Positions 28,053-43,641 of a stretch of DNA of 45,128 nucleotides are shown here, piece after piece. Under the pieces are notes generated by a model, which had not been told where the DNA came from, made no database searches, and saw only the letters and a program-made list of their open reading frames with translations. The stretch is from contig JAAYFF010000016.1 in NCBI GenBank assembly GCA_012728375.1, forward strand, positions 1 to 45,128, written 5' to 3'. The stretch is from Bacillota bacterium (GTDB taxonomy: Bacteria; Bacillota; Dethiobacteria; DTU022; UBA8154). A program made the translations under genes and the position numbers. Positions within the stretch are counted from its first letter, which is position 1. Each line of letters begins with the position of its first letter.

Positions 28053-28100
28053 CAAATGTGATACCCGCATCGGGGTAAAACCGATGTAAATCTGAATTAG

Positions 28101-28137
28101 AATAGCCCCGCGGTTAGCCGGGGCTATTTGGTTTTTT
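28101..28137 (+). terminator. Terminator after purL
   Basis: AATAGCCCCG-cggttagc-CGGGGCTATT followed by TGGTTTTTTT. Confidence 0.85.
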
Positions 28138-28192
28138 TCGATAACAATATCATACACACTTATAGGTTATCGGCGCTGTATCTTTACAGTAG

Positions 28193-29065
28193 TTATCTTA
28201 TGCTTTTGCGAACAGGGATCCAAACTTCACTATAAGCGTAGTCTTTTTTCTGTTCATCCATTTTAGTAAAAGAAAAAACCGGGGCATTGATTACTTCATA
28301 ATCGGAAGAAGGAAGCCATTCCGAATATATTTTTGCCATTGTTTCTTGCAACGTAGAAGGAAATGGTCCTTCATTTGGGAAGATTGCCCAGGTACAGGCT
28401 TCAACCGGCACTTTTTCTAATTGATCGCTTACTTTATTTTCAGTCGTTAAAACACCTATCAAGTGCGTTAAATATCCTTCTTCTTTTAAGAAATTCGCGT
28501 CAGCATCATAAGAAGCATTAACAATTTCATAAGGCTCTATATTTTGCAGGGAATGCATTTCTTCCCTTTGTTCCTCCGTTATGCTCTCTGCGAGCTTTAC
28601 AATCTCCATATTAACGCCTTTAAATTGCATGGGAACACGTTTACTAACACCGACTAAATTAAACGCTGGTTTGTCTTCAATTCTAAATTCCATAGAAATT
28701 CCTCCCTTGACGGTTATGACAAATGAAAGTTTGGGAAACGATTTGCTTATTCCTTTTTTTATTACCTCGGAGGGTAAAAAACCGCTCCATTTTTTAAATG
28801 CTCTTGTAAAGCCGTCTATTGACTGATAACCATATTTAAAAGCAACATCCGTTACTTTTTCTCCTTGTAATAAATCTTTATTGGCTTCCGACAGTTTTCT
28901 GTTCTTGATATATTCACTAAGCGTCAGACCTGAAAGATAAAAAAATATCTTTCTAAAGTGATAGTCAGAAACCCCGGCATATTCAGAAATTATCTCAAGC
29001 GACAGATCATCATCGGTTAAATGCTCTTCAATATAGTCAATCACATGATTCAATTCTTTTAACAT
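28193..29065 (-). CDS. AraC-family regulator with C-terminal GyrI-like effector domain
   Basis: A 290-residue protein. Residues about 1-105 form an AraC/XylS two-helix-turn-helix DNA-binding domain: LSLEIISEYAGVSDYHFRKIF, then KVTDVAFKYGYQSIDGFTRAFKKW. The rest (about 120-290) is a GyrI-like small-molecule-binding domain, seen in SoxS/Rob-type and BmrR-like regulators: PAFNLVGVSKRVPM, CTWAIFPNEGPFPSTLQETMAKIYSEWLPSS. Such proteins often control multidrug or stress genes. No target gene lies next to it. The start follows AGAGGAGTAAG. The adjoining 29066-29334 is AT-rich with no gene. Confidence 0.88.
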   Translation of the reverse strand: MLKELNHVIDYIEEHLTDDDLSLEIISEYAGVSDYHFRKIFFYLSGLTLSEYIKNRKLSEANKDLLQGEKVTDVAFKYGYQSIDGFTRAFKKWSGFLPSEVIKKGISKSFPKLSFVITVKGGISMEFRIEDKPAFNLVGVSKRVPMQFKGVNMEIVKLAESITEEQREEMHSLQNIEPYEIVNASYDADANFLKEEGYLTHLIGVLTTENKVSDQLEKVPVEACTWAIFPNEGPFPSTLQETMAKIYSEWLPSSDYEVINAPVFSFTKMDEQKKDYAYSEVWIPVRKSIR

Positions 29066-29334
29066 TCTCTTACTCCTCTCAATATCTGCATAATACCAAA
29101 GTTTTTTTAACGGTGCTCGACTTTTTTTATATAAAAATATCGAATCAATAAGAGATACATTATCTCAATGATAGTGTCCCTTTTAGTACTTTAGTCATTA
29201 ACGATTATATACCTGCAGTTAGAACTTTAATCGATCTGTTCCCTTTTCCTTTCAAGTTATAACGAGTAGCTTGCTTGTATTGTATGCCGAAACGATGTAT
29301 GATATTTCCATACGGGATCTGTCGAGGTGAAACC

Positions 29335-29493
29335 ATGGGATACATTAGCGAAAAAGAAGCTCAAAATGGGGGGATTTCGGTTAGGCAGGTGCAAGTACTG
29401 TGCAAGCAGGGGCGGATAGACGGCCTGTTTCGCTCAGCGATGTATGGGGGGCAATACCGAAAGTGCAAAAAAGCCGATAGATGGTTGCTCTGA
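29335..29493 (+). CDS. Small HTH (excisionase/MerR-like) protein, probably frameshifted
   Basis: A 52-residue ORF after GAGGTG. It begins MGYISEKEAQNGGISVRQVQ and continues VLCKQGRIDG, the pattern of short helix-turn-helix DNA-binding proteins that usually go on with RFG..WAIPKDAxKPxDGR. Here the expected continuation is scattered over the other two frames: WGAIPK in one, AKKPIDG in another. This suggests small indels around 29440-29480. The intact version is often found beside helicase or mobile-element genes. It is likely a decaying regulator of the downstream helicase locus. Confidence 0.5.
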   Translation: MGYISEKEAQNGGISVRQVQVLCKQGRIDGLFRSAMYGGQYRKCKKADRWLL

Positions 29494-29518
29494 GGCTTAA
29501 TAGAGAACCAAAAAGCAG

Positions 29519-29588
29519 TGGAAAATGACAAGCCCAGTTTTATGCATACTCAATAGTGTGCGATGGAGTAGGACAACATCATTTTCCA
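29519..29588 (+). repeat. 10-bp perfect inverted repeat in the helicase leader
   Basis: TGGAAAATGA (29519-29528) and TCATTTTCCA (29579-29588) are perfect complements separated by 50 nt, ending just before the AATGAGGTG ribosome site of the helicase gene. In RNA this would be a long-armed hairpin next to the start; in DNA it could be an operator. Confidence 0.5.
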
Positions 29589-29604
29589 AAAATGAGGTGT
29601 ACAC

Positions 29605-32600
29605 ATGGAAAGCAGAGAAAAAGTTATTGCTTTATACAAATATATTATGGAACTGTGCGCTCTGAAGTATCGAGTCGTTACTGATGTAGAAAAACAATAC
29701 TGGGTGTGCTATTTAAAAGACATCCCCGATGACCCGGAAAACATATCGATTTTCTATCGGGATAGAGTGGAAGAAGAAACGGACGATGACACTGTTTTGC
29801 TCACGGTGAAAAAACCGGATTTTCAACGTTGCCCGGCTCCACCCACTGTTTTGACAGAGTGGCTGGAGCCGGGTTGGGATCATTTTACAAATAAAGTTAA
29901 AGTCAAAAATATACTATCCAAAAGTGTTTCCAAAAATGTCGGCGATAAGGAGCAGGAACCCGAATATTTCGGCAACTCAGAGCAACGGGTAAAGGCATTT
30001 GAAAAATGGAACGCTCAAAGAAGCATTTGGGCCGAGAAACAGCGCATTATTTACAGAACACGACGTTTCTTCGCACAGTTGTTTCAAATATATACCGACT
30101 TAGAACGTGAGTCGGAGACGCTGGAGTTGATGGTCGGAAACGGGATTATTAAGGAAATCGGTAACAACGCTATAAACCATCCAATACTGCTCAAGCGCGT
30201 AAAGCTTCAGTTTGACGCCGAAGCAAATGTAATCAGTATCCATGATACAGACACGGAGCCTGAGCTTTATACTTTGCTTTTACAGGATATACAAGAGATT
30301 AATCACAGCGCAATAAAGCAGCTAAAAGAAGATTTGCACGAAAATTTTTATCATCCGTTGGATCGCAATGATTCGCCGGATTTTCTGAAGATTTTGACGC
30401 ACAAGCTCTGTTCTGACAGCCGATTCATTACTGAGGAGAATGACAAACTCGACAGCGAAGATAGGCTTATTATGACTTTGAATCCGGTATTTTTTGTCCG
30501 GAAGCGCATTGGCGGAACGCTGAAGACAATCGAAGAAATCATAATGAACATAGAAAATACCGGCTATGTACCCGGACATCTTCTGAATTTGGTAGACGGA
30601 GGCAAAGTCGAGATTCCAGAGGACGAGTACGAGCCAGCAATTGAGGAGCAGCTTGCTGCCCTAAACGGTGAAAGCCTGTCCATCTTGCTCTCAAAGGAAG
30701 CGAACAGGGAACAGCTCGAAATCGCCAAACGTATAGAGCATTACAATGCAGTTTTGGTACAGGGACCTCCCGGGACCGGAAAAACTCATACCATTGCAAA
30801 CCTGCTTGGACATTTTTTGGCACAAGGTAAAAGTGTTTTAGTTACCAGCCATACCAAAAAGGCTCTCGCGGTACTTAAAGAAAAAGTGCCGGACGAAATC
30901 AAGGGTCTGTGTGTTTCGGTTCTGGATGACACCAATCTGGATATGGTTCGTTCTGTAGATAGTATTTCGGAGTATATGTCAAGACATACGGCGAACGAGT
31001 TGAAAAAGCAGGTGGAATCAGATAAGCGGCAACGTGCGGAAATCATCAAACAACTTGCCGACATCCGAAAAAAGATTTATGTCATTAAATACAAAGAATT
31101 TGAGCCTATCGTTTACAACGACGGCAATAGCTATTCGCCCGCAAATGCTGCTGCATTTGTCAATGCTAATGCAATGGAGCTATCATACATACCCGGAAAA
31201 GTAAAACTATATCACTCTCTACCCATTACCACTGAGCAGCTTATCAGGCTTTACCGCAGCAACGCCGAATTGTCGGAAGCGGAGGAACGTGAGCTGACCT
31301 ATGATATTCCCTCACCAGATAGTATACCGTCCCCCGCAGAGTTCACTAATGATTTATGTAAAGCCGCAGAATGTATAGCGGCAATTGATAGAATGGCAAA
31401 AGAACTAAACATTCAAATCGATATCGATATATCTAACAAGACTCTAAACATTAATGACGGGGTTATTTCTGTTCCGTTTGTACAAAATCCGTTTGCAGAG
31501 AGATTGGAACAACTCTCGCAATATGTTAGCACCTTCAAGAGTATTGACGGATGGATGATCTATGCGGCAGCAGATGGTCGCAAGGGCGGCGGATACCGCC
31601 AGAGATGGGAGATGCTTATAAGCGCTATTGAGGACACGGCAACTTGTGCCGACGCTATCGTCACGCAAATGCTTGGGCGCAGCATTGTGATCAAGCCTGA
31701 AATTACATTGACACAGCTATCGTCGTATTTAGAAAATGTTCTTAAACTTTTCCAAAAGAAAGGAAAGATTACCAAGCTCGATTTGCTGTTAAATAAACCG
31801 CTGAAGGCGGTACTGTCAGTTATAAGCATTAACGGGGTACCAATTGCGTCGGAAAGCGATTGCAGATTGGTACAGCATTATCTAACGCTTCAAGAGAAAA
31901 GAAATCAGACTGCCTTGCTTTGGAACGAGTTGATGGCAAAGCACGGCATGCCAGAGTTTTTTTCGCTGGGCGACGAGCCTGAACATATCGGGTTGCGGAT
32001 GATATCAAATATCAGGCGCTATCTAGACTGGTATCAAAATGAATATGCCCAACTGGTGCAGCTTGTAAAGCAAGCAGGGCTGAATGCCGACGCTATTTTT
32101 TGTGAATCAGAACTGGACTCTGAGTTAACGCGTACCCAAAAGATACTTGGCACAATCCAAAAGAAACTCTCCCGGTACATTGACCTTGCCAATCATTTAA
32201 TCACATTATGTGGCATCGAGGATCGTAAAACACAGGCGATCCGCACTCTATCCGAAGGAGAGCGCAAGTATTCTTCTATCTGCAATTTGCTTATCAGTGC
32301 TATTGCAAGCAACAAACCGGAAAACTACGAGCGATACTATCAGCAGTTATCCGAACTGTACTCTAAATATTCGCTCAAGGTAATGCGTGAAGAAATGCTA
32401 GCATTAATAGAACCTGTTGCGCCAGAATGGGCAGACGCGATCAGAAACCGCGTGGGAATCCACGGAGATGTAAACTGCCCGCAAACAATTGAAAGTGCGT
32501 GGAAATGGAAGCAGTTTGCCGGAATCATCGACTCCATCATAGCCGAACCATTTGAAGAACTTCAGCACAGAGCGGTTATGCTTGGGAACGAGCTGCGCCG

Positions 32601-34233
32601 AATTACAGCAAAGGTTGCAGTCAATAGTGCGTGGTATCATCTGATGCTCCGTTCAGAGCGCGATCTGGATATGAAGCAGGCGTTGCAGGGATGGAAGCTC
32701 ACGGTAAAGAAGATCGGTAAAGGGACCGGCAAGAATGCGCCCGCTCTTAAGAAGCAGGCTCGAGAGCTAATGGCCAAATGTCAGAAAGCTGTTCCTGCTT
32801 GGATCATGACAGTCAATAAAGCCATGGAAAACCTCGACCCAGCCAGTAACACCTTTGACGTCATCATTGTTGATGAGGCCAGTCAATCCGATATTTCGGC
32901 GCTTGGCATCGTCTATATGGCAAAAAAGATCATTATCGTGGGGGATGACAAACAAGTCAGCCCTATGGCGGTAGGCATAGATATCGGCAAGATGAACGCG
33001 CTGCGCGATATGTATATCAAGGATATCATACCCAACTGGCATTTGTTTGACGCAAAGACATCACTCTATGATATTGCGGGGACGACTTTTCAGCCGCTGA
33101 TGCTGCGTGAGCATTTCAGGTGCCTTCCGGATATTATCGGTTATAGCAACAAGCTGTCCTATGACTTTAAAATCAAACCGCTGCGCGGTGCCGGAACCAG
33201 TCGAATATCTCCTTCCATTGTAAAGTTCAGAGTTAAAGACGGAAGACGAGAAGGCAGACAAAAGATAAATACCAAAGAAGCAGAAACAATTGTCGCTTTA
33301 ATGATGGCCTGCATAGAGCAAAAAGAATACGAAGGCATGACTTTTGGTGTAATTTCGCTCTTGGGTGACGAGCAGGTGCAAAAGATACAACAAATTATCC
33401 TGCAAAGGATCGACCCTGCTGTTATTGAGCAGCGGCGCATCCTGTGCGGTAATGCTTCACACTTCCAAGGCGACGAGCGTGACGTGATATTTCTTTCGCT
33501 TGTTGACAGCAATGAGGGCGATGGTCCGCTCAGCATGGCTGGAGAAGGCGCTGATCAATCGAGAAAGCAACGCTATAATGTCGCAGTCAGCCGCGCCAAG
33601 GATCAATTATGGGTGGTACATTCTCTTGACTATACAAAAGATCTTAAAAGTGGTGACTTGCGCCGCGATTTGCTGGAATATGCAGATAATCCTAAGGCAT
33701 TTGCTCAACTTACAGAAAAAGTCAAGGCGGAAGCAGAGTCCCCGTTTGAGGAAGCCGTCGCCAAGGCACTTATTGCTTCCGGCTATCATCTCGTGCAGCA
33801 ATGGGAAGTAGGCGCTTACCGCATCGACATGGTCGTGCTGTATAACGGCAGCAGTGTTGCCATAGAGTGCGACGGCGAATCGTTTCACAGTGGTGATGAA
33901 AAGGTTCGCGCTGATATGGAACGACAGGCCATCTTGGAGCGAATCGGTTGGCGGTTTATCCGTATTCGCGGAAGTGAATATTTCAGAGACCCCGAAAAGA
34001 CAATGGAAAGAGTTAAACGCGAATTAAACGAATATGGTATTTTCCCCGAATCAATTTTGAATGAACCTACGGAGCAACCTGCGTCCGCGCTGCTTGACCG
34101 CGTTAAGATACGTGCCGAGCAAATTTTGGATGAATGGCACTCGCGGAGCAATGATATTATTGATATCCCATATGAACCAGTCACTCCAACTACGTCGGAG
34201 CGAGTGACTACGCTACTTCAGAAAAAGGGCTAA
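29605..34233 (+). CDS. Large SF1 (Upf1-like) helicase with C-terminal PDDEXK/DUF559-type nuclease
   Basis: The 1542-residue protein has an unassigned N-terminal region (1-370), then Walker A GPPGTGKT (387-394) and SHTKKAL (motif Ia). A long, mostly helical insert follows (about 450-1050). Next come Walker B IIVDEASQSD (Asp1090-Glu1091), VGDDKQVSP (motif III), LREHFRCLPDII and YNVAVSRAKDQL (motif VI, about 1324). Residues about 1378-1490 form a Vsr/DUF559-like domain with RIDMVV (Asp1408), AIECDGESFH (Glu1421, Asp1423) and WRFIRIRGSEYF. The architecture (AAA_11/AAA_12 plus REase_MTES-like nuclease) is common in defence islands. I infer a nucleic-acid-targeting defence or maintenance role. The start ATG follows GAGGTG. 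Confidence 0.85.
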   Translation: MESREKVIALYKYIMELCALKYRVVTDVEKQYWVCYLKDIPDDPENISIFYRDRVEEETDDDTVLLTVKKPDFQRCPAPPTVLTEWLEPGWDHFTNKVKVKNILSKSVSKNVGDKEQEPEYFGNSEQRVKAFEKWNAQRSIWAEKQRIIYRTRRFFAQLFQIYTDLERESETLELMVGNGIIKEIGNNAINHPILLKRVKLQFDAEANVISIHDTDTEPELYTLLLQDIQEINHSAIKQLKEDLHENFYHPLDRNDSPDFLKILTHKLCSDSRFITEENDKLDSEDRLIMTLNPVFFVRKRIGGTLKTIEEIIMNIENTGYVPGHLLNLVDGGKVEIPEDEYEPAIEEQLAALNGESLSILLSKEANREQLEIAKRIEHYNAVLVQGPPGTGKTHTIANLLGHFLAQGKSVLVTSHTKKALAVLKEKVPDEIKGLCVSVLDDTNLDMVRSVDSISEYMSRHTANELKKQVESDKRQRAEIIKQLADIRKKIYVIKYKEFEPIVYNDGNSYSPANAAAFVNANAMELSYIPGKVKLYHSLPITTEQLIRLYRSNAELSEAEERELTYDIPSPDSIPSPAEFTNDLCKAAECIAAIDRMAKELNIQIDIDISNKTLNINDGVISVPFVQNPFAERLEQLSQYVSTFKSIDGWMIYAAADGRKGGGYRQRWEMLISAIEDTATCADAIVTQMLGRSIVIKPEITLTQLSSYLENVLKLFQKKGKITKLDLLLNKPLKAVLSVISINGVPIASESDCRLVQHYLTLQEKRNQTALLWNELMAKHGMPEFFSLGDEPEHIGLRMISNIRRYLDWYQNEYAQLVQLVKQAGLNADAIFCESELDSELTRTQKILGTIQKKLSRYIDLANHLITLCGIEDRKTQAIRTLSEGERKYSSICNLLISAIASNKPENYERYYQQLSELYSKYSLKVMREEMLALIEPVAPEWADAIRNRVGIHGDVNCPQTIESAWKWKQFAGIIDSIIAEPFEELQHRAVMLGNELRRITAKVAVNSAWYHLMLRSERDLDMKQALQGWKLTVKKIGKGTGKNAPALKKQARELMAKCQKAVPAWIMTVNKAMENLDPASNTFDVIIVDEASQSDISALGIVYMAKKIIIVGDDKQVSPMAVGIDIGKMNALRDMYIKDIIPNWHLFDAKTSLYDIAGTTFQPLMLREHFRCLPDIIGYSNKLSYDFKIKPLRGAGTSRISPSIVKFRVKDGRREGRQKINTKEAETIVALMMACIEQKEYEGMTFGVISLLGDEQVQKIQQIILQRIDPAVIEQRRILCGNASHFQGDERDVIFLSLVDSNEGDGPLSMAGEGADQSRKQRYNVAVSRAKDQLWVVHSLDYTKDLKSGDLRRDLLEYADNPKAFAQLTEKVKAEAESPFEEAVAKALIASGYHLVQQWEVGAYRIDMVVLYNGSSVAIECDGESFHSGDEKVRADMERQAILERIGWRFIRIRGSEYFRDPEKTMERVKRELNEYGIFPESILNEPTEQPASALLDRVKIRAEQILDEWHSRSNDIIDIPYEPVTPTTSERVTTLLQKKG

Positions 34234-34261
34234 ATAAAATTCAGATATGATCCAAAAGCGT

Positions 34262-34295
34262 AAAAGCCCATAGTTTCACTAACTACGGGCTTTTT
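34262..34295 (+). terminator. Terminator after the helicase gene
   Basis: AAAAGCCC-a-TAGTT pairs with AACTA-c-GGGCTTTT around a short loop, with TTTTT at the 3' end. Confidence 0.85.
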
Positions 34296-34478
34296 GCCTT
34301 TTTAAAGCTGTAAATTAAGTTATAACATCTAGGCACTGCTAATTTCTGTTTTACACAGTCTGACGGGGTGCCTTGACATCCGAAAAACAAACCCTAAAAT
34401 TAAAATGAATAATATTGACGTAAGCAGCTTTTTGAAATACTATCTATATTAATTCATAAATAGGGTATACAAATATTA

Positions 34479-34498
34479 TATAATAAATCTACAGGAGG
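34479..34498 (+). promoter_or_regulatory. Probable pckA -10 box and ribosome site
   Basis: TATAAT at 34479-34484 in a very AT-rich stretch; the -35 is not clear. AGGAGG at 34493-34498 precedes the ATG. The region 34296-34430 before it holds no gene that I can recognise. Confidence 0.35.
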
Positions 34499-34505
34499 AA
34501 GAACA

Positions 34506-36110
34506 ATGAACTATAATAATAATAAAATCAGCATTGAAAAAGAGGTAGAATTAATTAATACCGCAAAGGTGCATTATAACTTACCTATAGCAAAACTTGT
34601 AGAGATAGCGTTGACCCGACATGAAGGAAAACTGACCTCCAGCGGTGCCTTAAGCGTTAGGACCGGCAAATATACCGGCCGTTCACCAAACGATAAATTC
34701 ATTGTTAACGACGGAGAGGTTTCCAAGGACATCTGGTGGGGCGATATCAATAAACCTATGAGCCAGGAAGCCTTCCAAAATATATATAACAGGCTTCTAG
34801 CTTATCTACAGAACCGTGAACTATTTGTTTTCGAAGGTTATGCCTGTGCTGACCCCAATTATCGCTACCCTATCAGGTTTATCAACGAAATGGCCTGGCA
34901 AAATATCTTTGTTCGGCATCTTTTTTTAAAAATGGAACCTGCTCTGCTAAAAGGATTTAAACCCTCCTTAACAGTTATAGCAGCTCCGAACTTCCAGGCC
35001 GACCCCAGCATAGATAAAACAAACTCCGAAGCTTTTATCATTATTAATTTCTCCCGGAGGCTAATTCTTATTGGAGGAACGCACTATGCCGGTGAAATTA
35101 AAAAGTCGGTTTTCTCGGCATTGAATTTCCTGTTGCCCCGGCAAAATGTACTATCCATGCATTGTTCCGCAAATATGGGAAAAGAGGGCGATGTAGCACT
35201 GTTTTTTGGCCTTTCCGGAACGGGTAAGACCACCCTTTCCGCAGATCCCGAACGCTTCTTGATCGGCGATGATGAGCACGGCTGGTCTGAAGAAGGCATC
35301 TTTAATCTGGAAGGCGGCTGCTATGCCAAATGTATCAATCTTTCCCGGGAGCGTGAACCCCAGATCTGGGATGCCATTCGCTTTGGCAGCGTGGTGGAAA
35401 ATGTTGTTGTAGATCCTGTTAGCGCTGAAATAGACTTTAATGATAGCAGTATCACGGAAAATACCCGGGCAGGGTATCCCGTGGAATACATTTCCGGCTC
35501 TTTAATTCCGGGAGTCGGCGGCCATCCCCGGGTAATCATTTTCCTTACTGCAGATGCTTTTGGAGTAATGCCCCCTGTAGCCAAATTAACCGGGGAGCAG
35601 ATTATATATCATTTCTTGCTGGGCTATACCAGTAAACTGGCCGGGACGGAAAGAGGTATTACCGAGCCGGTCGCAACTTTTTCTACCTGTTTTGGGGCTC
35701 CTTTTCTTCCTCTAAATCCCCAAATCTATGCGAGAATGCTGGAAGAAAAAGTATCCCGGCATCAGACGGATGTTTACCTGGTTAATACGGGTTGGAGCGG
35801 CGGAGCTTACGGAACGGGAAAAAGAATCGAACTTAAATATACCCGGTCTATTGTAAGTGCTGTTATCAAAGGGCAGCTTAACAGCGTCGAGTATGATCAA
35901 GATCCGTTTTTTAACCTGATGATTCCCCGGGAGTGTCCCGGAGTTCCCCAAGAAATATTGCATCCGGAAAATACCTGGAAAGACCGGAATGCCTTTCAAA
36001 AACAGGCCGGCCATCTGGCAGACCTTTTTGAGGATAATTATTCCAAACTGAAGTCAAGCGAGGAGCTGCGGGACTTGTTAGGTTCCTCCCGTTCCTCGCG
36101 CTTAAAATGA
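34506..36110 (+). CDS. pckA: PckA, ATP-dependent phosphoenolpyruvate carboxykinase
   Basis: A 534-residue enzyme interconverting oxaloacetate and PEP with ATP/ADP. Motifs: RTGKYTGRSPNDKF, the Walker A-like kinase loop GLSGTGKTTLSADP, the metal site LIGDDEHGW, ARAGYPVEYI-like segment (TRAGYPVEYISGSLIPG), and TFSTCFGAPFLPL. Full family length, so it is the intact copy. Its 3' end and the sequence after it are repeated, with deletions, at 43052-43247. Confidence 0.95.
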   Translation: MNYNNNKISIEKEVELINTAKVHYNLPIAKLVEIALTRHEGKLTSSGALSVRTGKYTGRSPNDKFIVNDGEVSKDIWWGDINKPMSQEAFQNIYNRLLAYLQNRELFVFEGYACADPNYRYPIRFINEMAWQNIFVRHLFLKMEPALLKGFKPSLTVIAAPNFQADPSIDKTNSEAFIIINFSRRLILIGGTHYAGEIKKSVFSALNFLLPRQNVLSMHCSANMGKEGDVALFFGLSGTGKTTLSADPERFLIGDDEHGWSEEGIFNLEGGCYAKCINLSREREPQIWDAIRFGSVVENVVVDPVSAEIDFNDSSITENTRAGYPVEYISGSLIPGVGGHPRVIIFLTADAFGVMPPVAKLTGEQIIYHFLLGYTSKLAGTERGITEPVATFSTCFGAPFLPLNPQIYARMLEEKVSRHQTDVYLVNTGWSGGAYGTGKRIELKYTRSIVSAVIKGQLNSVEYDQDPFFNLMIPRECPGVPQEILHPENTWKDRNAFQKQAGHLADLFEDNYSKLKSSEELRDLLGSSRSSRLK

Positions 36111-36184
36111 TAATAAATTTGCTATCTCTTCCGCTGCTCTTACCATGAGGGCTTGGGAGTTTTGGAAGAGACTTGGAACAATTT
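36054..36184 (+). repeat. pckA 3' end and flank, duplicated at 43119-43247
   Basis: From TCAAGCG inside the last pckA codons to GGAACAATTT, this segment is nearly identical to 43119-43247, with scattered substitutions and small indels. A second matching block is 35739-35799 with 43052-43112. Right after the repeat ends, sequence specific to the PadR/FtsW insertion begins. Confidence 0.85.
36102..36184 (-). pseudogene. C-terminal tail of an unidentified convergent gene (copy 1)
   Basis: On the minus strand this encodes QIVPSLFQNSQALM followed by AAEEIANLL and a stop within the end of pckA. The same tail, in longer form, is at 43171-43500. Only about 25 codons remain here; the rest was replaced by the PadR/FtsW segment. 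I do not recognise the family. Confidence 0.45.
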
Positions 36185-36201
36185 GCAAATTTAATTTGTT
36201 A

Positions 36202-36254
36202 TTGACATATATAGATTGTCGATATATAATGCATATATAGATAATCTATATATA
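36202..36254 (+). promoter_or_regulatory. Strong promoter with overlapping dyad operator for the PadR operon
   Basis: TTGACA (36202-36207), 17-bp spacer, TATAAT (36225-36230): a consensus promoter. TATATAGATT (36208-36217) and AATCTATATA (36243-36252) form a perfect 10-bp inverted repeat spanning the -10 and the start region, and a second AT-rich dyad lies between. The placement suggests autorepression by the PadR protein encoded next. The ribosome site AGGAGGG follows. Confidence 0.7.
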
Positions 36255-36266
36255 GGAGGGACAGAT

Positions 36267-36611
36267 TTGGCAATTGATAAAAGCCTTGTAACGGGAAGTA
36301 CAACCATGTTGATATTAAAGCTCCTTGAAGAAGCGGATATGTACGGCTATCAAATGATTGAGGAACTTAACAAAAAATCAAAAAATGTTTTTGAGTTAAA
36401 GGCGGGGACACTATATCCACTACTTCATACTTTAGAGCAAAAAGAACTGGTCACTTCCTATGAACAAACCGCAGATAATGCAAGGGTGCGGAAGTACTAC
36501 AGCATCACCAAAAAAGGTCACAAATATTTATGTGATAAAAAAGAGGAATGGAAAACATTTATTTCTGCAGTAAATGATGTTTTAGGAGCTGCAAATTATG
36601 CAACAGCCTAA
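36267..36611 (+). CDS. PadR-family transcriptional regulator
   Basis: A 114-residue winged-helix regulator: ILKLLEEADMYGYQMIEELN, ELKAGTLYPLLHTLEQKELV, RKYYSITKKGHKYL. TTG at 36267 follows AGGAGGG; further upstream codons in frame lie inside the operator. It overlaps the next gene by 14 bp. PadR proteins of this short type usually repress their own operon and respond to a membrane or small-molecule signal. Confidence 0.9.
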   Translation: MAIDKSLVTGSTTMLILKLLEEADMYGYQMIEELNKKSKNVFELKAGTLYPLLHTLEQKELVTSYEQTADNARVRKYYSITKKGHKYLCDKKEEWKTFISAVNDVLGAANYATA

Positions 36612-37986
36612 TAACGTAATTGAATATTTAGAAACCGTGCGTCAACAAATTCGGTGGAAAAAGGCACAACCGGTTATTTTAGAGGAAATCGAGAATCACT
36701 TAATTGACCAAAGGAATGCTTTCTTAAAGGAGGGTTTTGATGAGACAACGGCAACTGATAAGGCAATTGCCGAGATGGGAGACCCTGTTGTTGTGGGTGA
36801 GCAACTTGATAGAACACACAGACCAAGGCCAGATTGGACTTTGCTTACACTAACGGGCATGATGCTTCTTTTAGGGCTTGTAATTCAATTTTTTATTAGT
36901 TCTACCATTGATGGTGTAGGTCCCTTTGGAAAACAAGTTTTATGGGCAGGTATTGCATTTATAGCTATGTCAGCTACATATTTCGTTGATTTCACAGTCA
37001 TTGGGAAATACCCTAAGATCATATTCTTTGCACTCTGTGTAGTAACAATAGCTTTTTATTTCTCTGCAGAAACAATTAATGGCAGAGCAACAAATACTAT
37101 TTATCCACTGCTGCTGTTTCCAACAGCCTTTGCCGGGTTTATATACAGTATGAGAAATAAAGGCTATACCGGGCTTGTTCTTTGCGGGGCAGCTTTTGTT
37201 ATACCAGCCTTTCTGTCCGTAATTGTGCCCAGTTTAACAGTCCTTTTTTTGCTGAGTGTTTCATGTCTTATAATTTTGACAGCTGCTGTTTTGAAAGGCT
37301 GGTTTAGCGTAAGAAAACTACCGGCTATGCTAATTCTGTATATCCCAACTGCTGTCGTTTTATCGATGCCTTTTTTCATGAGTATGGGTGATGGATATAG
37401 AGCAAAGAGATTGCAAGTCGTATTTAATCCTTCCCTTGACCCTATGGGAGCGGGATATATAGGAACTCTTATCCAACGAGTTCTGTCACATTCACAGTAT
37501 ATCGGCGGGGGCTCACCTATAGATTGCTATGGAGCTTCTAACGTATCGCAGATTTTACCTGGAATTAATACCGATTTTTTGTTAACCTATTTGATCTACA
37601 GATTTGGGTGGATTGTACTTTTAGGTATTATTGCATTATTTGCTGCTTTTATTATTAGAGCGGTTATTCTATGTAAGAAGCAGAAAAGCGTACTCGGCTT
37701 TCTAACTTCTACTGCAATTGTTTCAACGTTCGCAGTACAATGCACCGTATATATAGCTTCAAATTTAGGGTTTTTGCTTTTTTCTCCGCTGTCATTGCCA
37801 CTCATCTCTTATGGAGGGAAATTCCTCATTACAAATATGCTCCTAATCGGACTATTGTTTTCAGTATTTCGCACAGGTACATTGGTAAGGGATAAAGCTG
37901 GTTCTGCATCGACGTATCTTAACCATTTTATTGAATATAATAATGGGCAAATTATTATTAATCTAAAGACCTGGCTTATCAAATGA
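36598..37986 (+). CDS. FtsW/RodA/SpoVE-family membrane protein with N-terminal HAAS-like domain
   Basis: A 462-residue protein. The first 75 residues are a soluble helical domain (VRQQIRWKKAQPVILEEIENHL, then EGFDETTATDKAIAEMGDP) like the HAAS domain that pairs with PadR regulators. About ten membrane segments of the SEDS fold follow: GINTDFLLTYLIYRFGW and PLISYGGKFLITNMLLIGLLFSVFR match FtsW/RodA signatures, though the usual GGSS reads GGKF. SEDS proteins polymerise peptidoglycan glycan strands or act as partners in this. A PadR-controlled SEDS paralogue may respond to cell-wall stress. The C-terminal tail after the last helix looks unusual and might be changed by the insertion. Confidence 0.8.
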   Translation: MQQPNNVIEYLETVRQQIRWKKAQPVILEEIENHLIDQRNAFLKEGFDETTATDKAIAEMGDPVVVGEQLDRTHRPRPDWTLLTLTGMMLLLGLVIQFFISSTIDGVGPFGKQVLWAGIAFIAMSATYFVDFTVIGKYPKIIFFALCVVTIAFYFSAETINGRATNTIYPLLLFPTAFAGFIYSMRNKGYTGLVLCGAAFVIPAFLSVIVPSLTVLFLLSVSCLIILTAAVLKGWFSVRKLPAMLILYIPTAVVLSMPFFMSMGDGYRAKRLQVVFNPSLDPMGAGYIGTLIQRVLSHSQYIGGGSPIDCYGASNVSQILPGINTDFLLTYLIYRFGWIVLLGIIALFAAFIIRAVILCKKQKSVLGFLTSTAIVSTFAVQCTVYIASNLGFLLFSPLSLPLISYGGKFLITNMLLIGLLFSVFRTGTLVRDKAGSASTYLNHFIEYNNGQIIINLKTWLIK

Positions 37987-38031
37987 ATAAAAATTATGAA
38001 GGTTGCTGACCCATGAAAACTATATATTATA

Positions 38032-38072
38032 AAAAGACGGAAACCTCAAATTTATATGGTTTCCGTCTTTTC
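38032..38072 (+). terminator. Terminator after the PadR/FtsW operon
   Basis: AAAAGACGGAAACC (38032-38045) and GGTTTCCGTCTTTT (38058-38071) form a perfect 14-bp stem ending in T-rich sequence. Confidence 0.85.
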
Positions 38073-38129
38073 GTATGGTTTTGTGGCATGGTTCAGTAAT
38101 TTGCCCTATGAACCGTGCCTAAAGTCGGT

Positions 38130-38249
38130 GCTTTTTCTTTTCTCCCCAGTTGTGTATACTAAAAAGAAATAATGACATAAGAGGGTAGCTGTGGGTAAAA
38201 AGGAAAAACCGCCTGTTACAACAGGTGAAATCATTCAACTGCGGATCGA
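38130..38249 (+). repeat. Duplicate of the rlmD promoter and 5' end (copy 1)
   Basis: About 120 bp, roughly 95 percent identical by eye (five differences) to 43522-43641. It contains the shared upstream region with TATACT, the GAGGGTA ribosome site and the first 20 codons of the methyltransferase gene. Confidence 0.9.
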
Positions 38250-38262
38250 GAATAATGGATAA
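38191..38262 (+). pseudogene. rlmD: 5' fragment of rlmD-like gene
   Basis: GTG start followed by GKKEKPPVTTGEIIQLRIE, the same as the intact gene start at 43583, then NNG and a stop. The homology breaks at 38249, and unrelated sequence leads into the histidine kinase. It is a duplication scar and could at most make a 23-residue peptide. Confidence 0.85.
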
Positions 38263-38369
38263 CGCGTATCAATGGGGGCCATTTTACGAGGCACTCGACG
38301 ACAAATTGCTTGTATACAGTGATAAGCGGGATGGAACATTGTAGTGGATTGGGAAGGCGAGGCAGGGAT

Positions 38370-39758
38370 ATGCAAATTAAAGAGATTTGGCCGTTTTTGC
38401 TTCCGGGGGTGTTGCTTCAGGTTTTGATGCAGATCCTCTACATTGTGGAGAGCGTGAGAGAAGATAACCGAAAGCCGTTGCATCGCACCCTATATATCTT
38501 ATCTATTGCTGTTTTCGGCTTAGCCGCCATTGCCTTTCATCTATTCCGTGCCGAAAAAATGCCGCCCAAGGATACCTCTACTGCCGAAGTGGAAAGGGCT
38601 AACCACCTCACAAACAAGGGTATTTTTTTTCTTCTTCTGATTTCTTTTCAAGTGATGGGACTGCATATGCTGGCGGAGAATGCTGGAACTGCAGCGTATA
38701 TGCCCTTGCTTTGGTTGCTGACAATCTCTTTTCTCATTATGCTCCTGTACAATCTGCTTCCCGAAAAAAAGAGACTTATAACCGAACCCCTTTTACCGAT
38801 GCTGCAACTTATCTTATGCATTCCAATTCAATACCTGGATGTTTCGGGGGACAATTTATTTCTTTCCATCATTGCGGGCTTCAGCGCAATTAATCGCGCA
38901 CCGCTGCTCCGAGCGAAGGTGTATGGGATCGGTGCCCTGGGTGCTTATCTTTTGGGCAGCACGACAAGAACAATATTTTTATCCCAAAGCACCGAAATGA
39001 GTGACCTTGTGCGGTATTTTTTCGTCAACACGATTGTGGTTCTTCTTGCGCTGCTCGCGTTTTACACATTAAAAAAACAGATGATTACAAGCGTTAGGTT
39101 GGAGTCCGCCCTCCGCACGGTCAATGAACAATCCGAAAAACTGAAAGGTTTAGCCGTAATCGAAGAACGAAACCGCATCGCTGCCGAAATGCACGATACG
39201 GTCGGCCATACTCTGACCGCAGCTGTACTGGCATTGGAAGCGGCGGAGGGACTCGTATCGGAGCCACAGGCGGCGCAAAAACTGCGTCAAGGAAAAGAAC
39301 AGGTACGGCGCGGGCTTTCGGAGCTTCGTGCTTCCGTCAAAGTGGTTCGGGCGGGAAACGAAACAGATTTCGCAGCCGCCCTCAGTCGGCTTTTGCAGGA
39401 AATCCGGTCTGATACCGGACTTGATATTCATATCGTTATGGAATCAGAGATCGCCTTACCCCCGCTTAAAGCGGGCATTCTGCTCTCAGTGGTCAAGGAG
39501 TGCGCAACCAATGCGATCAAGCATGGGCACGCAACTGAGGCGGACATCCTGATTGGCCAGCATAATGGACAGTTGCGGTTTGCCTTTACCGATAATGGCT
39601 TTGGAACCGGTACGATAAAATCCGGCTCCGGGCTGTCCATCATGCGGGAGCGCGTACAAAGCGTGGGCGGGACGCTGGAAATAGAAAGTGCGCCGGGAGA
39701 AGGATTCACCATCAGCCTTATTATCCCCGCTGCACAGAGAAAGGAGGATGCAGAGTGA
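38370..39758 (+). CDS. Sensor histidine kinase (HisKA_3, NarL-type partner)
   Basis: A 462-residue kinase: about six to eight hydrophobic segments in residues 1-235, then the dimerisation/phosphoacceptor helix EERNRIAAEMHDTVGHTLTA with the conserved His, and a C-terminal HATPase with VVKECATNAIKHGHA (N box), FTDNGFG (G1) and GSGLSIMRERVQSVGG (G2). The architecture is like DesK/LiaS-type membrane-sensing kinases. ATG at 38370 is chosen because it starts the first membrane segment properly; GTG codons further upstream are in frame. The stop overlaps the response regulator start. Confidence 0.9.
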   Translation: MQIKEIWPFLLPGVLLQVLMQILYIVESVREDNRKPLHRTLYILSIAVFGLAAIAFHLFRAEKMPPKDTSTAEVERANHLTNKGIFFLLLISFQVMGLHMLAENAGTAAYMPLLWLLTISFLIMLLYNLLPEKKRLITEPLLPMLQLILCIPIQYLDVSGDNLFLSIIAGFSAINRAPLLRAKVYGIGALGAYLLGSTTRTIFLSQSTEMSDLVRYFFVNTIVVLLALLAFYTLKKQMITSVRLESALRTVNEQSEKLKGLAVIEERNRIAAEMHDTVGHTLTAAVLALEAAEGLVSEPQAAQKLRQGKEQVRRGLSELRASVKVVRAGNETDFAAALSRLLQEIRSDTGLDIHIVMESEIALPPLKAGILLSVVKECATNAIKHGHATEADILIGQHNGQLRFAFTDNGFGTGTIKSGSGLSIMRERVQSVGGTLEIESAPGEGFTISLIIPAAQRKEDAE

Positions 39759-40396
39759 ACCGGATCAAGGTGCTGCTGGCGGATGACCAAACCATCATCC
39801 GGGACGGGCTGCGCGCGCTGCTGGAAACAAATCCTGATATTGAAGTGGTTGCTGAAGCAAAAAACGGTATGGAGGCTTATGAACAAACGAGCATCCATCA
39901 CCCGCAGGTCGTTCTTATGGATATTCGAATGCCACAAATGGGAGGCGTGGAGGCCACGCGCCTGATCAAGCAAGATTTCCCCGAGACGGCGGTTTTGGTA
40001 TTAACGACCTTTGATGACGATGAATCCATCCTCGGCGCCATTACCCATGGCGCTTCGGGGTACCTGCTCAAGGACATCAGCGGTGCGAAATTGTCCGAAG
40101 CCGTTCGTGACGCCGTGCGGGGCAGCGTCATTTTACCGGGGAACATCGCCGCAAAGATCACAAAACATATTGGCAAGCAAAGACGGGCTGAAACATCGCT
40201 TTCGGACTTTACCCAACGTGAGCAGGATATCATTCGTCTGCTGATGCAGGGGAAAAGCAATCAGGAAATCGCGCAGACACTTTTTCTAACTATCGGCACA
40301 GTCAAGAATTATATCAGCCAAATCTACCGCAAGGCAGGAATCACCGACCGGGCTAATGCCATATTGCACTTTAAGGAATTAGGATTTAAGGTATAG
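39755..40396 (+). CDS. NarL/LuxR-type response regulator
   Basis: A 213-residue partner of the kinase, with start GTG overlapping its stop (GTGA). Receiver domain: VLLADDQTIIRDGLRALLE, phospho-acceptor Asp in VVLMDIRMPQMGG, switch region LVLTTFDDDESI, Lys in LLKDIS. The C-terminal LuxR helix-turn-helix is LTQREQDI-like (FTQREQDIIRLLMQGKSNQEIAQTLFL, then GTVKNYISQIYRKAGI). Likely targets are the membrane-protein and transporter genes just downstream. Confidence 0.93.
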   Translation: MNRIKVLLADDQTIIRDGLRALLETNPDIEVVAEAKNGMEAYEQTSIHHPQVVLMDIRMPQMGGVEATRLIKQDFPETAVLVLTTFDDDESILGAITHGASGYLLKDISGAKLSEAVRDAVRGSVILPGNIAAKITKHIGKQRRAETSLSDFTQREQDIIRLLMQGKSNQEIAQTLFLTIGTVKNYISQIYRKAGITDRANAILHFKELGFKV

Positions 40397-40407
40397 GTTT
40401 TTTAGCG

Positions 40408-40432
40408 ACGGGAGCTACGGCTCTCGTTTTTT
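40408..40432 (+). terminator. Terminator after the two-component operon
   Basis: ACGGGAGC-tacg-GCTCTCGT (one G-T pair) followed by TTTTTTA. Confidence 0.7.
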
Positions 40433-40458
40433 ATTACCTCATATATGACTCCGGTAAC

Positions 40459-40488
40459 TTATCATATGACCACTCATTCCTCTATACT
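40459..40488 (+). promoter_or_regulatory. Possible promoter of the small membrane protein genes
   Basis: TTATCA (40459-40464) and TATACT (40483-40488), spacer 18. The imperfect -35 would fit activation by the response regulator encoded just upstream; this is inference. Confidence 0.35.
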
Positions 40489-40565
40489 GAACATGGAAAA
40501 ACCGGGAATAGTGTTCAAAGGCATCAATTGTTTTACCACAAATCAATTAAGGGAGGTCGAATCGC

Positions 40566-40745
40566 ATGAAAAAGCAAAAGGTGTCAAAATTTTGGAATAT
40601 GGGTACAGCCATCGGGTTGTGCACCGCCGTCAGTATTGTACTGGGGGCATTGCTACAAAATGTGGTGATGTGGCTGTGCATAGGTGCCGGCATAGGCGTG
40701 GTGCTCGGAGCGATTTCCGTAAATAAAAAATTGCAAGACAAATAA
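40566..40745 (+). CDS. Small two-helix membrane protein
   Basis: A 59-residue ORF starting at ATG after GGGAGGTCG: KKQKVSKFWNMG, then GTAIGLCTAVSIVLGALL and WLCIGAGIGVVLGAISV hydrophobic helices, and a KKLQDK tail. A longer overlapping frame (40445-40726) lacks these features and looks like a shadow. Small proteins of this type often precede ABC exporters in bacitracin/lantibiotic-responsive loci. Not assigned to a named family. Confidence 0.65.
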   Translation: MKKQKVSKFWNMGTAIGLCTAVSIVLGALLQNVVMWLCIGAGIGVVLGAISVNKKLQDK

Positions 40746-40773
40746 CCCATTAAAATAAGGAGGTTTTTACATT

Positions 40774-40986
40774 ATGAACGAGTTTGTAATTACAAAGGAT
40801 ATGCTCCTGATTCTCTCTCCGCTTATTCTGCTTCAGCTTGGTCTGGCGGTGTACTGCGGTGTTAAAATCTTCAGGGAAGGTGTTCAAAACCTGAACAGGT
40901 GGGCATGGCTTTTCATCTGCCTGCTTGTCGATGTAATCGGCCCGGTTTTATTCCTTCTTGTGGGAAGGAGGAAGGAATGCAAATGA
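40774..40986 (+). CDS. PLDc_N-domain small membrane protein
   Basis: A 70-residue product after AAGGAGG: a hydrophobic helix (MLLILSPLILLQLGLAVYCG), VKIFREGVQNLNRWAWLF, and a second helix VDVIGPVLFLLVGR. This is the phospholipase D N-terminal (PLDc_N) type of small protein. Such genes commonly sit directly before an ABC-transporter ATPase gene, and here the stop overlaps (ATGA) the start of an ATPase fragment. Confidence 0.8.
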   Translation: MNEFVITKDMLLILSPLILLQLGLAVYCGVKIFREGVQNLNRWAWLFICLLVDVIGPVLFLLVGRRKECK

Positions 40987-41235
40987 TTACGGTAAAGGGG
41001 CTTGTAAAAGATTTTGGCAGCTTCCAAGCATTAAAGGGGCTAGATATCTTCCTTACTAAATGTACAGAGCTGGACGCCCTCCGGCTTGTTGGTGGAAGCG
41101 CAAAAGCTCATGCCGTCGGTTGCTCCATCTTTATTTCTTCCCCTGATCGTGACAATTATGTTCATGATATTCATGATGGCGTTGGCTTTGCCAGGGCTCA
41201 GGCGTATGGAGTGGAATGTCCGTGTTGCACATTGA
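40983..41235 (+). pseudogene. Collapsed ABC transporter: ATPase start joined to permease end
   Basis: From ATG 40983 the frame encodes MITVKGLVKDFGSFQALKGL, the standard first strand of an ABC ATPase, and then loses all homology at about 41048; Walker A, signature and Walker B are absent. From 41044 a different frame encodes a permease-like tail: SGLLVEAQKLMPSVAP, then a hydrophobic FLPLIVTIMFMIFMMALALP helix, ending at TGA 41233. One internal deletion of probably more than 1.5 kb would explain both. The transporter is therefore dead, while its two-component system and accessory genes survive. Confidence 0.75.
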
Positions 41236-41256
41236 AAGATAGAAGGAGATGCGGAT

Positions 41257-42741
41257 ATGCAAAATACAGTATTATTCAAGGGTCACAAAATATGGGCCTG
41301 GTTTATCCTTTTATCCATCTTAATCAGTTTACTTCTTGCCTTGTTCTCCGGCAGTCTGCAAATCAAGCGGGCTATGCGTGCCGACGTGCCGCTTAACGAA
41401 TTTAAGGCGCATATGGATGAGCGTATTCCCGCCCTAATGAAGCTGTATGAGATACCGGGTTGCAGCATCGCGCTTGTGAAGGACGGCGAAATCGTATGGA
41501 CTGAGGCGTTTGGTTATGCGGATGTGGAAAGCGGCAGGAAGTTGACAGTCGATACGCCTATGAGCGTGCAGTCTATTACAAAATCCGTTACAGCCTGGGG
41601 GATAATGCGGCTTGCGGAAAAGGGTTTAATTGACTTGGATGCTCCGGTATCGCAGTATTTAAAAAGCTGGCAATTTCCGCATTCGGGCTATCCGACAGAA
41701 AAGATTACGACACGCCAGCTTTTAAGTCACACTGCGGGGATGCCACTGGGCGATTTCAACCATATCTACGCCCCTGGCGAGGCAATGCCCTCTAACTGGG
41801 ATGTGACGACCAAGGAGGCGGTGCCCACGCGCGAGGCAGGGGCGGGATTTGCCTACTCCAATGTGGGTTACAATCTTCTGGAAATTCTAATAGAGAATGT
41901 CACAGGGCAAAGCTTTTCAGAGTATTTGCGCTCGGAGGTATTTCTACCGCTGGGCATGGAAAGCGCCACCTTTGAGATAGACTCAGCGGCTACGCCTTAC
42001 CCGCCTACGGGATATAACCTTAGCGGAAAGTCGGTACCGGTCTATCTCTATCCCTCAAAGGCTTCCGGCGGCCTGTTTGCTACAGCACATGATATTGCGC
42101 GCTTTGCGGCAGCGGGCTTGAAAGAAAACCCTGTTCTAAATACCAAAAGTGTTGAGCAGATGTATCAGCCCGAAAGTTATAAAATCGGAATTTACGGTTT
42201 AGTATTTGAGGCATATGGATTGGGTCATTATATTGAAAAGCTGCAGAACGGTTTGAGCAGCGTTTCCCACGGCGGTCAGGGCAACGGCATCATGACGCAT
42301 TATCAATCTGTGCCGGAAACAGGCGATTCTATCGTGATTCTCACAAACAGCCAAAGGAGCTGGCCGCTTATCGCCTATGTGCTCAGCGATTGGGCGCAGT
42401 GGCGAGGCTTCTCGTTTGTTGGTATGGGAAAGATTATCTGGGGGCATTACGGGCTTTGTGCGGTCATCGGTATACTGATCTCTGCAAGTTTGCTCATGAT
42501 ATTGAGGCTGATTGTTGACTCCTATTGGCAAAGGCGGACCGGATTCAGAGTGCTTCGAGCTGGGACGGCAGTTATTCTGCTCGGAGTTCTAATCCGGTGC
42601 TTTTTTCAAGAGTATTTGTTTGTTACTTCGGTTTTTCCGGTTTTGTCTGTGTGGCTTGGGGGCTCGGTGTTTGGGTTCTCCATCGTGCTGCTGTTGTCTG
42701 CGTTGTTACCCGCATGCTCAAGAAAGCAGGATAAACTCTAA
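41257..42741 (+). CDS. Membrane serine hydrolase (beta-lactamase / penicillin-binding protein-like, PF00144)
   Basis: A 494-residue protein with an N-terminal membrane anchor (about residues 8-28), then a class C beta-lactamase/PBPX-type domain. The nucleophile is in SVQSITKSV (SxxK), the Tyr-Asn motif in AYSNVGYN, and HGG in SHGGQGNG. The C-terminal 110 residues hold three or four hydrophobic helices. Such proteins act outside the cell as D-aminopeptidases, esterases or resistance factors; true beta-lactamase activity is not implied. The ATG follows AGAAGGAG. It lies in the remains of an ABC transporter locus and probably shares its regulation. Confidence 0.85.
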   Translation: MQNTVLFKGHKIWAWFILLSILISLLLALFSGSLQIKRAMRADVPLNEFKAHMDERIPALMKLYEIPGCSIALVKDGEIVWTEAFGYADVESGRKLTVDTPMSVQSITKSVTAWGIMRLAEKGLIDLDAPVSQYLKSWQFPHSGYPTEKITTRQLLSHTAGMPLGDFNHIYAPGEAMPSNWDVTTKEAVPTREAGAGFAYSNVGYNLLEILIENVTGQSFSEYLRSEVFLPLGMESATFEIDSAATPYPPTGYNLSGKSVPVYLYPSKASGGLFATAHDIARFAAAGLKENPVLNTKSVEQMYQPESYKIGIYGLVFEAYGLGHYIEKLQNGLSSVSHGGQGNGIMTHYQSVPETGDSIVILTNSQRSWPLIAYVLSDWAQWRGFSFVGMGKIIWGHYGLCAVIGILISASLLMILRLIVDSYWQRRTGFRVLRAGTAVILLGVLIRCFFQEYLFVTSVFPVLSVWLGGSVFGFSIVLLLSALLPACSRKQDKL

Positions 42742-42805
42742 TGTTAGATTCAATTTCAGGGGTGCAGCTTCGTGGAAAAAGGAACTGCCCCAAGGAGGAT
42801 TGACC

Positions 42806-43168
42806 ATGAAAAGTGCGATAAATCGATATCCAATCATCCCATTTATACTGCGGTATATTGCCCTGCATACACTGACCTATCTGTCTTTCGGAATTTTTTT
42901 TATGTTAATCAGCCAATACGCTCGATTGAGGGCTTTCTGTATACTCGGTTTTCTTTCAACCCGCTCATCGGATATCCTGAAATCGCCCTGCAAATGCTTG
43001 CGTTTTCTTGGCTATTCTGCCACTGGCAGGGAAAAACGCAACACAAGGATACTGGAAGAAAAAGTATCCCGGCATCTGACGGATGTTTACCTGGTTAATA
43101 CGGGTTGGAGCGCTGCAGTCAAGCGCGGAGCTGCGGGACTTGTTAGGTTCCTCCCGTCCTCCCGTTAA
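42806..43168 (+). pseudogene. Chimeric pseudogene: frameshifted membrane protein fused to pckA fragment
   Basis: ATG at 42806 follows AAGGAGG. The first 45 codons give a membrane-type start (PFILRYIALHTLTYLSFGIF), but the sensible continuation (RFSFNPLIGYPEIALQML, AFSWLFCHWQGK) is in another frame, so there is a frameshift near 42905-42920. From 43052 the frame runs into an internally deleted copy of the pckA 3' end (LEEKVSRH, DVYLVNTGWS). The gene therefore lost its own end when the duplication junction formed. Confidence 0.7.
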
Positions 43169-43247
43169 AATTATAATAAATTTGCTATTTCTTCCGCTGC
43201 TGTTTCCATGAGGGCTTGGGTGTCATGGAAGAGCCTCGGAACAATTT
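43052..43247 (+). repeat. pckA 3' end and flank (copy 2), with internal deletion
   Basis: 43052-43112 matches 35739-35799 with one visible difference, and 43119-43247 matches 36054-36184. The 254 bp between these blocks in the intact gene are missing here and replaced by CTGCAG. Confidence 0.9.
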
Positions 43248-43500
43248 TCCCGGGTAAGACAACCGCACCTTTTGCTGCGGCAGTACTGCTCATCAACTTG
43301 ATGGCCTGTTTGCCGTATTTTAACAATAATACAACCGGAGCAAAGAATCAAGGAAATTTCCAGTCAACTCTGTGTCCAAGCAATTTATAAGCCTGCTTAT
43401 AGGCATTGCCGATGTTTTTTATAATAATTTTTTCAAATGCTGCGGTAACCACCGGCATTGGTGCTTCCGTATCGTCCGTCGCGGATATAACCTTGGAAAA
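43171..43500 (-). pseudogene. Remnant of an unidentified gene convergent with pckA (copy 2)
   Basis: On the minus strand one frame reads ATDDTEAPMPVVTAAFEK, then NAYKQAYKLLGHRVDWKFP, an in-frame TGA at about 43348, and on with APVVLLLKYGKQAIKLM, KGAVVLPGKIVPRLF and QALMETAAEEIANLL to a stop at 43171. The tail is shared with 36102-36184. It looks like the C-terminal third of a cytosolic protein of about 200-300 residues; I do not recognise the family. The N-terminal part is missing, having run into the rlmD promoter region. Confidence 0.5.
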
Positions 43501-43521
43501 ATGAAACAGGGAAAAGCCTGC

Positions 43522-43641
43522 GCTTTTTCTTTTCTCCCTAGTTGTGTATACTAAAAAGAAATAATGACATAAGAGGGTAACTGTGGGTAAAAAAGAAAAA
43601 CCGCCTGTTGCAACAGGTGAAATCATTCAACTGCAGATCGA
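43522..43641 (+). repeat. rlmD promoter and 5' end (copy 2, intact gene)
   Basis: Matches 38130-38249. It includes a TATACT (-10-like, 43547-43552), GAGGGTA and the start of the intact methyltransferase gene. Confidence 0.9.

Follow-up and report, generated by a model that had tools for sequence, protein, structure and literature searches.

A stretch of 45,128 nucleotides from a Bacillota bacterium (contig JAAYFF010000016.1, here called the window) contains a gene for a large helicase-nuclease fusion which is probably a horizontally mobile anti-phage (anti-invader) gene, the defensive role being read from the genomic neighbourhood of its relatives and from its mobility. It belongs to a widespread, horizontally moving family of UPF1-like helicases carrying a Vsr-type nuclease; an anti-phage role is most likely for the family, and its member in the window is truncated. 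Defence islands repeatedly contain large helicase-nuclease fusions with DUF4011 and a Vsr-type nuclease, for which we know of no mechanism. An earlier note on this DNA had proposed the gene as a defence candidate; both the contrast in neighbouring genes and the horizontal transfer described below speak in favour of this.

The reading frame starts with ATG and comprises 1542 codons without internal stops (Table 1). Reading frame, Pfam matches and AlphaFold core agree with the earlier description as a 1542-residue SF1 helicase with a C-terminal PDDEXK nuclease, and the SF1 motifs, claimed to be complete, can all be read directly in the sequence: N367/Q370, the Walker A motif GPPGTGKT (K393), DEAS (1090-1093), GDDKQ (1113-1117), EHFRC (1169-1173), QGDERD (1288-1293) and VAVSRA (1326-1331). 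Pfam models AAA_11 and AAA_12 score above cut-off, and K393, D1090 and E1091 are invariant in 67 of 67 aligned relatives. Residues 345-1542 are modelled confidently by AlphaFold (pLDDT 87.4), and a Foldseek search with the core returned SETX as best match (E 9e-11), followed by UPF1 (2e-10), with Sen1, DNA2 and SMUBP-2 also found. By its motifs and RecA core the protein is a member of the SF1B UPF1-like helicases.

Table 1. Features of the helicase-nuclease gene and its surroundings (positions in the window; residues in the 1542-residue protein).
Feature	Position	Strand	Basis or remark
SF1B (UPF1-like) helicase with C-terminal MTES_1575/Vsr-like PD-(D/E)XK nuclease	29605..34233	+	1542 aa
N-terminal region, residues 1-345	29605..30639	+	confidently folded (pLDDT 86.8 for 1-385)
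Putative remote DUF4011-like domain, residues ~143-269	30031..30411	+	hhalign prob 86.3, E 4.8e-6
First RecA-like domain, part 1, residues 366-440	30700..30924	+	Walker A lysine K393 at 30781-30783
Long, mostly helical insert, about residues 441-1055	30925..32769	+	between motif Ia and Walker B
Remaining helicase core, about residues 1056-1360	32770..33684	+	DEAS, GDDKQ, EHFR, QGDERD and SRA motifs
MTES_1575 (Vsr-like) nuclease, residues 1381-1474	33745..34026	+	PF18741, 104.6 bits vs gathering cut-off 38.2
Nuclease residues D1408; E1421; D1423	33826-33828; 33865-33867; 33871-33873	+	conservation among relatives
Segment common to window and G068 (L042)	29143..34229	+	about 89-95% DNA identity; flanks unrelated
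Decayed (frameshifted) HTH_17-like regulator gene	29332..29540	+	intact in L042, L043
Perfect 10-bp inverted repeat	arms 29519-29528, 29579-29588	.	absent as conserved feature in relatives
3' junction, end of homology to L042	34229..34233	+	alignment with L042
Stem-loop then T-rich stretch, probable terminator	34254..34302	+	sequence reading; not listed by pattern scan

Vsr-type nucleases are classed among the DNA-cutting enzymes. The C-terminal domain is assigned to the MTES_1575 REase family (PF18741) by its profile score and its D...E-x-D residues. The Vsr/DUF559-like nuclease with Asp1408, Glu1421 and Asp1423 that had been recognized earlier is thus borne out by the profile match and by the conservation of these residues, which are present in 61, 59 and 60 of the 67 relatives, respectively. 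Four relatives (L054, L056, L067 and L074) keep the checked helicase residues and have lost nuclease residues, and such losses count against the anti-phage reading.

No PDB fold match was found for residues 1-385 (best E 0.11, TM < 0.2), nor did a PDB sequence search with the family profile give a match for the N-terminal region. A BFVD match of the N-terminal fold to a phage 'AAA domain protein' (TM 0.25) was rejected as probably a fragment of a relative. The Pfam scan of the 1542-residue protein gives no DUF4011 match, yet in an hhalign comparison with the N-termini of PDC-S37 proteins, where a clear DUF4011 domain is present, residues ~143-269 align with a score far from that of the reversed and 20 column-shuffled control profiles (prob <1). 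This stretch may be a DUF4011-like domain of remote similarity. Some 600 residues long, the insert is nearly all helix with a few short strands in the AlphaFold model, in agreement with the very long helical insert between motif Ia and Walker B noticed from the sequence; homology of its sequence to the PDC-S37 insert was not found (score 23, controls 11-19). The statement that N-terminal region and insert do not match a named system is supported in part: neither a full-length match nor homology of the insert to that of PDC-S37 is found, but the N-terminus has the stretch that aligns with DUF4011, and a long helical insert after Walker A together with a fused Vsr nuclease has been described earlier for CnuH (see below).

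A close copy of the gene occurs at locus L042 in genome G068, which represents a different class of the same phylum. DNA identity is 94.5% over 29201-34229, with 59 bp more at 29143-29201, and a block of about 130 bp within the shared segment occurs in L042 only. For the window PurL, on the other hand, there is no DNA match in G068, and identity in protein is 28-38%. Because the gene copies are 94% identical whereas PurL is so divergent, the window-type gene appears to have moved horizontally between classes. The flanks of the G068 copy have no close match to the window's genus, and this speaks against a simple misbinning out of that genus, although in a draft genome such as G068 the contig could be misbinned.

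The same copy shows what the window locus has lost. The earlier view that the protein is a single-protein system which stands alone is untrue of the closest relatives, which carry genes for an HTH protein and a PC4-type ssDNA-binding protein in the same unit. An intact HTH gene lies upstream of the helicase gene in L042 and L043, and the upstream HTH gene of the window, correctly recognized as decayed, is frameshifted. In L042, L043, L046, L062 and L185 the helicase gene is overlapped, or followed within 25 bp, by a PC4-type gene about 80 codons long; in L061 this gene comes before the helicase gene, which gives six loci with an adjacent PC4 gene; at the control loci described below there is none. 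The PC4 fold binds single-stranded DNA (YdbC). The closest relatives are thus seen to combine HTH, helicase-nuclease and PC4 genes in one apparent transcription unit, which in L043 is located directly behind a tRNA-Thr gene. Beyond the 3' junction the L042 reading frame continues for about 135 more codons, encoding a small domain with the pattern DxRxxGGxxWV, and is followed by the PC4-like gene. About a dozen relatives have this C-terminal domain, for which nothing convincing was found in Pfam or PDB. Since homology to L042 stops at 34229, the window copy lacks about 135 C-terminal residues and the PC4 gene, of which no remnant was found in the window. This natural truncation suggests which parts may be dispensable. 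Other natural family members stop at about the position of residue 1513 and lack the extra domain.

Such losses raise the possibility, which we find doubtful, that the window copy no longer functions and is a remnant in decay. The frameshifted HTH gene and the missing 3' end and PC4 gene would fit this, as would a higher dN/dS on the window branch than on the G068 branch (0.30 vs 0.18), although this difference is not significant (p = 0.14). The 1542 open codons, the presence of all catalytic residues and the natural members that lack the extra domain argue in the opposite direction. Moreover, pairwise dN/dS between the window gene and the G068 copy is 0.20 along the entire gene, and such a value despite the losses suggests that the window gene was under purifying selection until recently, or still is. 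With motor and nuclease kept, the window copy may be partly active, uncoupled, or in early decay. In-frame stops are present inside the helicase gene of L045 (G195) and L052 (G402), so decay of the helicase gene is not unique to the window.

The preferred reading as an anti-phage gene draws on the neighbours of the relatives. Up to two nearest genes per side of 26 relatives, identified with a custom ORF caller, provided 102 proteins for a PADLOC scan, and 102 proteins taken from elsewhere in these or related genomes served as controls. Tallied per family and not per gene, 153 PADLOC families matched among the neighbours and 14 among the controls. The best neighbour scores, at the level of full members, were for DrmD (E=0), HKD-Snf2 (1e-271), PglZ (2e-208), JetA (2e-108) and BrxA (5e-78), whereas the best control score was 1e-34 and control matches were mostly to general helicase or ATPase families. 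The relatives adjoin BREX, Wadjet, McrBC, type I and type IV restriction, and HKD-SNF2 genes, and the controls adjoin none at comparable scores, in keeping with the proposed enrichment near defence genes. For example, PglZ and BrxA genes adjoin L051, a gene for a type IV-like enzyme adjoins L110, and L059 has McrBC and type I restriction-like genes (type I by sequence reading only). Downstream of the helicase gene, both L049 and L061 have an HKD-SNF2 gene followed by DUF4391-like and type III methylase-like genes, the last two assigned by reading only. Against the anti-phage reading, in the window itself no other recognizable defence gene is present near the reading frame, and the PADLOC results for the nearest genes tested are unconvincing.

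Defence of the host has to be weighed against a function as cargo that serves the mobile element itself, in replication or in exclusion of rival elements, which we regard as unlikely. Family copies occur on 14 IMG/VR contigs, three near-full-length matches were found in a plasmid collection, and the tRNA gene just upstream in L043 also suits an element. Two of the three plasmid-collection matches, however, are records over 2 Mb, and the neighbours of the copy on a viral contig (L185), an HsdR-like gene (by sequence reading only) and the PC4 gene, resemble defence cargo. Excluding rivals is itself a defence activity, and to that extent this explanation overlaps with the anti-phage reading.

No full-length match to the profiles of named systems (PDC-S37, ProA, Hhe, Mokosh) was obtained, so that the protein falls outside these systems. 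Closest in layout is PDC-S37, a phage defence candidate of PADLOC comprising DUF4011 helicases, on which no publications were found. It has a DUF4011-type region, an SF1 helicase with a long insert and an MTES_1575 nuclease in the same order; the family profile aligns with it over 1022 columns, and the insert is at the same place. In contrast to true members, which score up to 1584 bits, the window protein reaches 214 bits, over helicase and nuclease only; the DUF4011 similarity is remote, no sequence homology is seen between the inserts, and the clade is separate. Hhe (NF042953; PADLOC Hhe) and ProA (NF058533) are also helicases with an MTES_1575 nuclease end, but the scores of 164.5 and 209.4 bits, respectively, compare with NCBIfam equivalog cut-offs of 2000 and 1500, and Pfam finds neither HEPN nor canonical DUF4011 in the window protein. 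Mokosh proteins (MkoA/MkoC) share the SF1 helicase core (114-135 bits), without a match beyond it; in Pfam the window protein has neither of the NERD and PLD domains that are listed for Mokosh, and possesses MTES_1575 instead. Hna, an exonuclease for ssDNA under the control of ATP and a phage SSB (PMC13381803), is similar in working principle only, as are Hachiman and DNA2: in each a motor is coupled to a nuclease that senses DNA intermediates. Their domain order and families differ, and no membership is claimed.

The order of parts is also found in CnuH of type III-B CoCoNuTs, compared here by its published description as a UPF1-like SF1 helicase that carries a large helical insert behind Walker A and a fused Vsr-like nuclease (PMC11090510). 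Unlike a type III-B CoCoNuT, the window has no McrB (NxD motif), McrC or CnuA among the genes examined. McrC matches in the window's genome (G000) lie on other contigs. L059 was rejected as a CoCoNuT, its McrB having an ordinary NxxD motif. As proposed for the CoCoNuT helicases, the window-type protein could act on RNA or ribosomes and abort infection, with no cutting of phage DNA. Its UPF1/SETX/Sen1-like core and the layout shared with CnuH would suit such an activity, which we nevertheless hold to be somewhat less probable still than a role as element cargo: McrB and McrC genes were not found near the window copy, the nuclease is of a DNA-cutting class, and the PC4-type partner favours single-stranded DNA over RNA.

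The family is widespread and patchy in distribution. It is present in about ten phyla, and near-full-length members (matches > 400 bits) occur in 24 of the 398 genomes sampled from the phylum, ~6%. The nearest members found within the window's taxonomic family share no more than about 28-40% identity with the window protein. In a tree built from the helicase and nuclease columns, the family and PDC-S37 form separate clades on opposite sides of starred branches, and the phylum labels require 20 changes where the minimum is 10. The 2023 PADLOC and June 2026 NCBIfam libraries contain no dedicated model for the family, which as far as we found has no name of its own. L048, L054 and L056 adjoin one kind of tRNA cluster. 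A housekeeping helicase-nuclease of the DNA2/RecD kind for DNA repair or replication, located in accessory DNA by accident, is highly improbable. In its favour, DNA2 and SMUBP-2 are among the closest folds, and three genomes of family f33 have copies beside one kind of tRNA cluster whose placement looks stable; the patchy presence, the number of phylum changes, the transfer between classes and the defence neighbours all oppose it.

For an anti-phage helicase-nuclease, the following course of action is proposed. The UPF1/DNA2-like motor would load on single-stranded nucleic acid of phage DNA that is invading or replicating; the single strand is probably held or marked by the PC4 protein. Sensing or gating would fall to the DUF4011-like N-terminal region and the helical insert, and ATP-driven movement would bring the Vsr-like nuclease to cut DNA. 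Tentatively, the intact form could be a new three-part defence system of an HTH regulator, a DUF4011-like/SF1B helicase-Vsr nuclease with the DxRxxGGxxWV domain, and a PC4 protein that loads or licenses it on phage replication intermediates, with the window copy as a natural deletion variant in which motor and nuclease are left. The PC4-type partner leads to a concrete prediction, i.e. ssDNA-dependent activation.

Several smaller statements about the surroundings also stand. The terminator downstream of the gene is probable, with a stem-loop and a T-rich stretch, and the perfect 10-bp inverted repeat upstream exists; it was rejected as an operator because inspection of the alignment by eye shows no conservation in L042 or L043. 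The existence of an accessory stretch is confirmed: in two same-genus genomes (G003 and G004) PurL and an RlmD-like gene are near each other, and in the window a variable stretch of 15.5 kb lies between them (28060-43580). Copies of 35733-35799, 36048-36184 and 38121-38249, all short and 90-95% identical, are present at 43046-43641; they include a scrap of the PEPCK gene and represent a collapsed duplication. A gene for a beta-lactamase-family serine hydrolase (41257-42741) also lies within the variable stretch.
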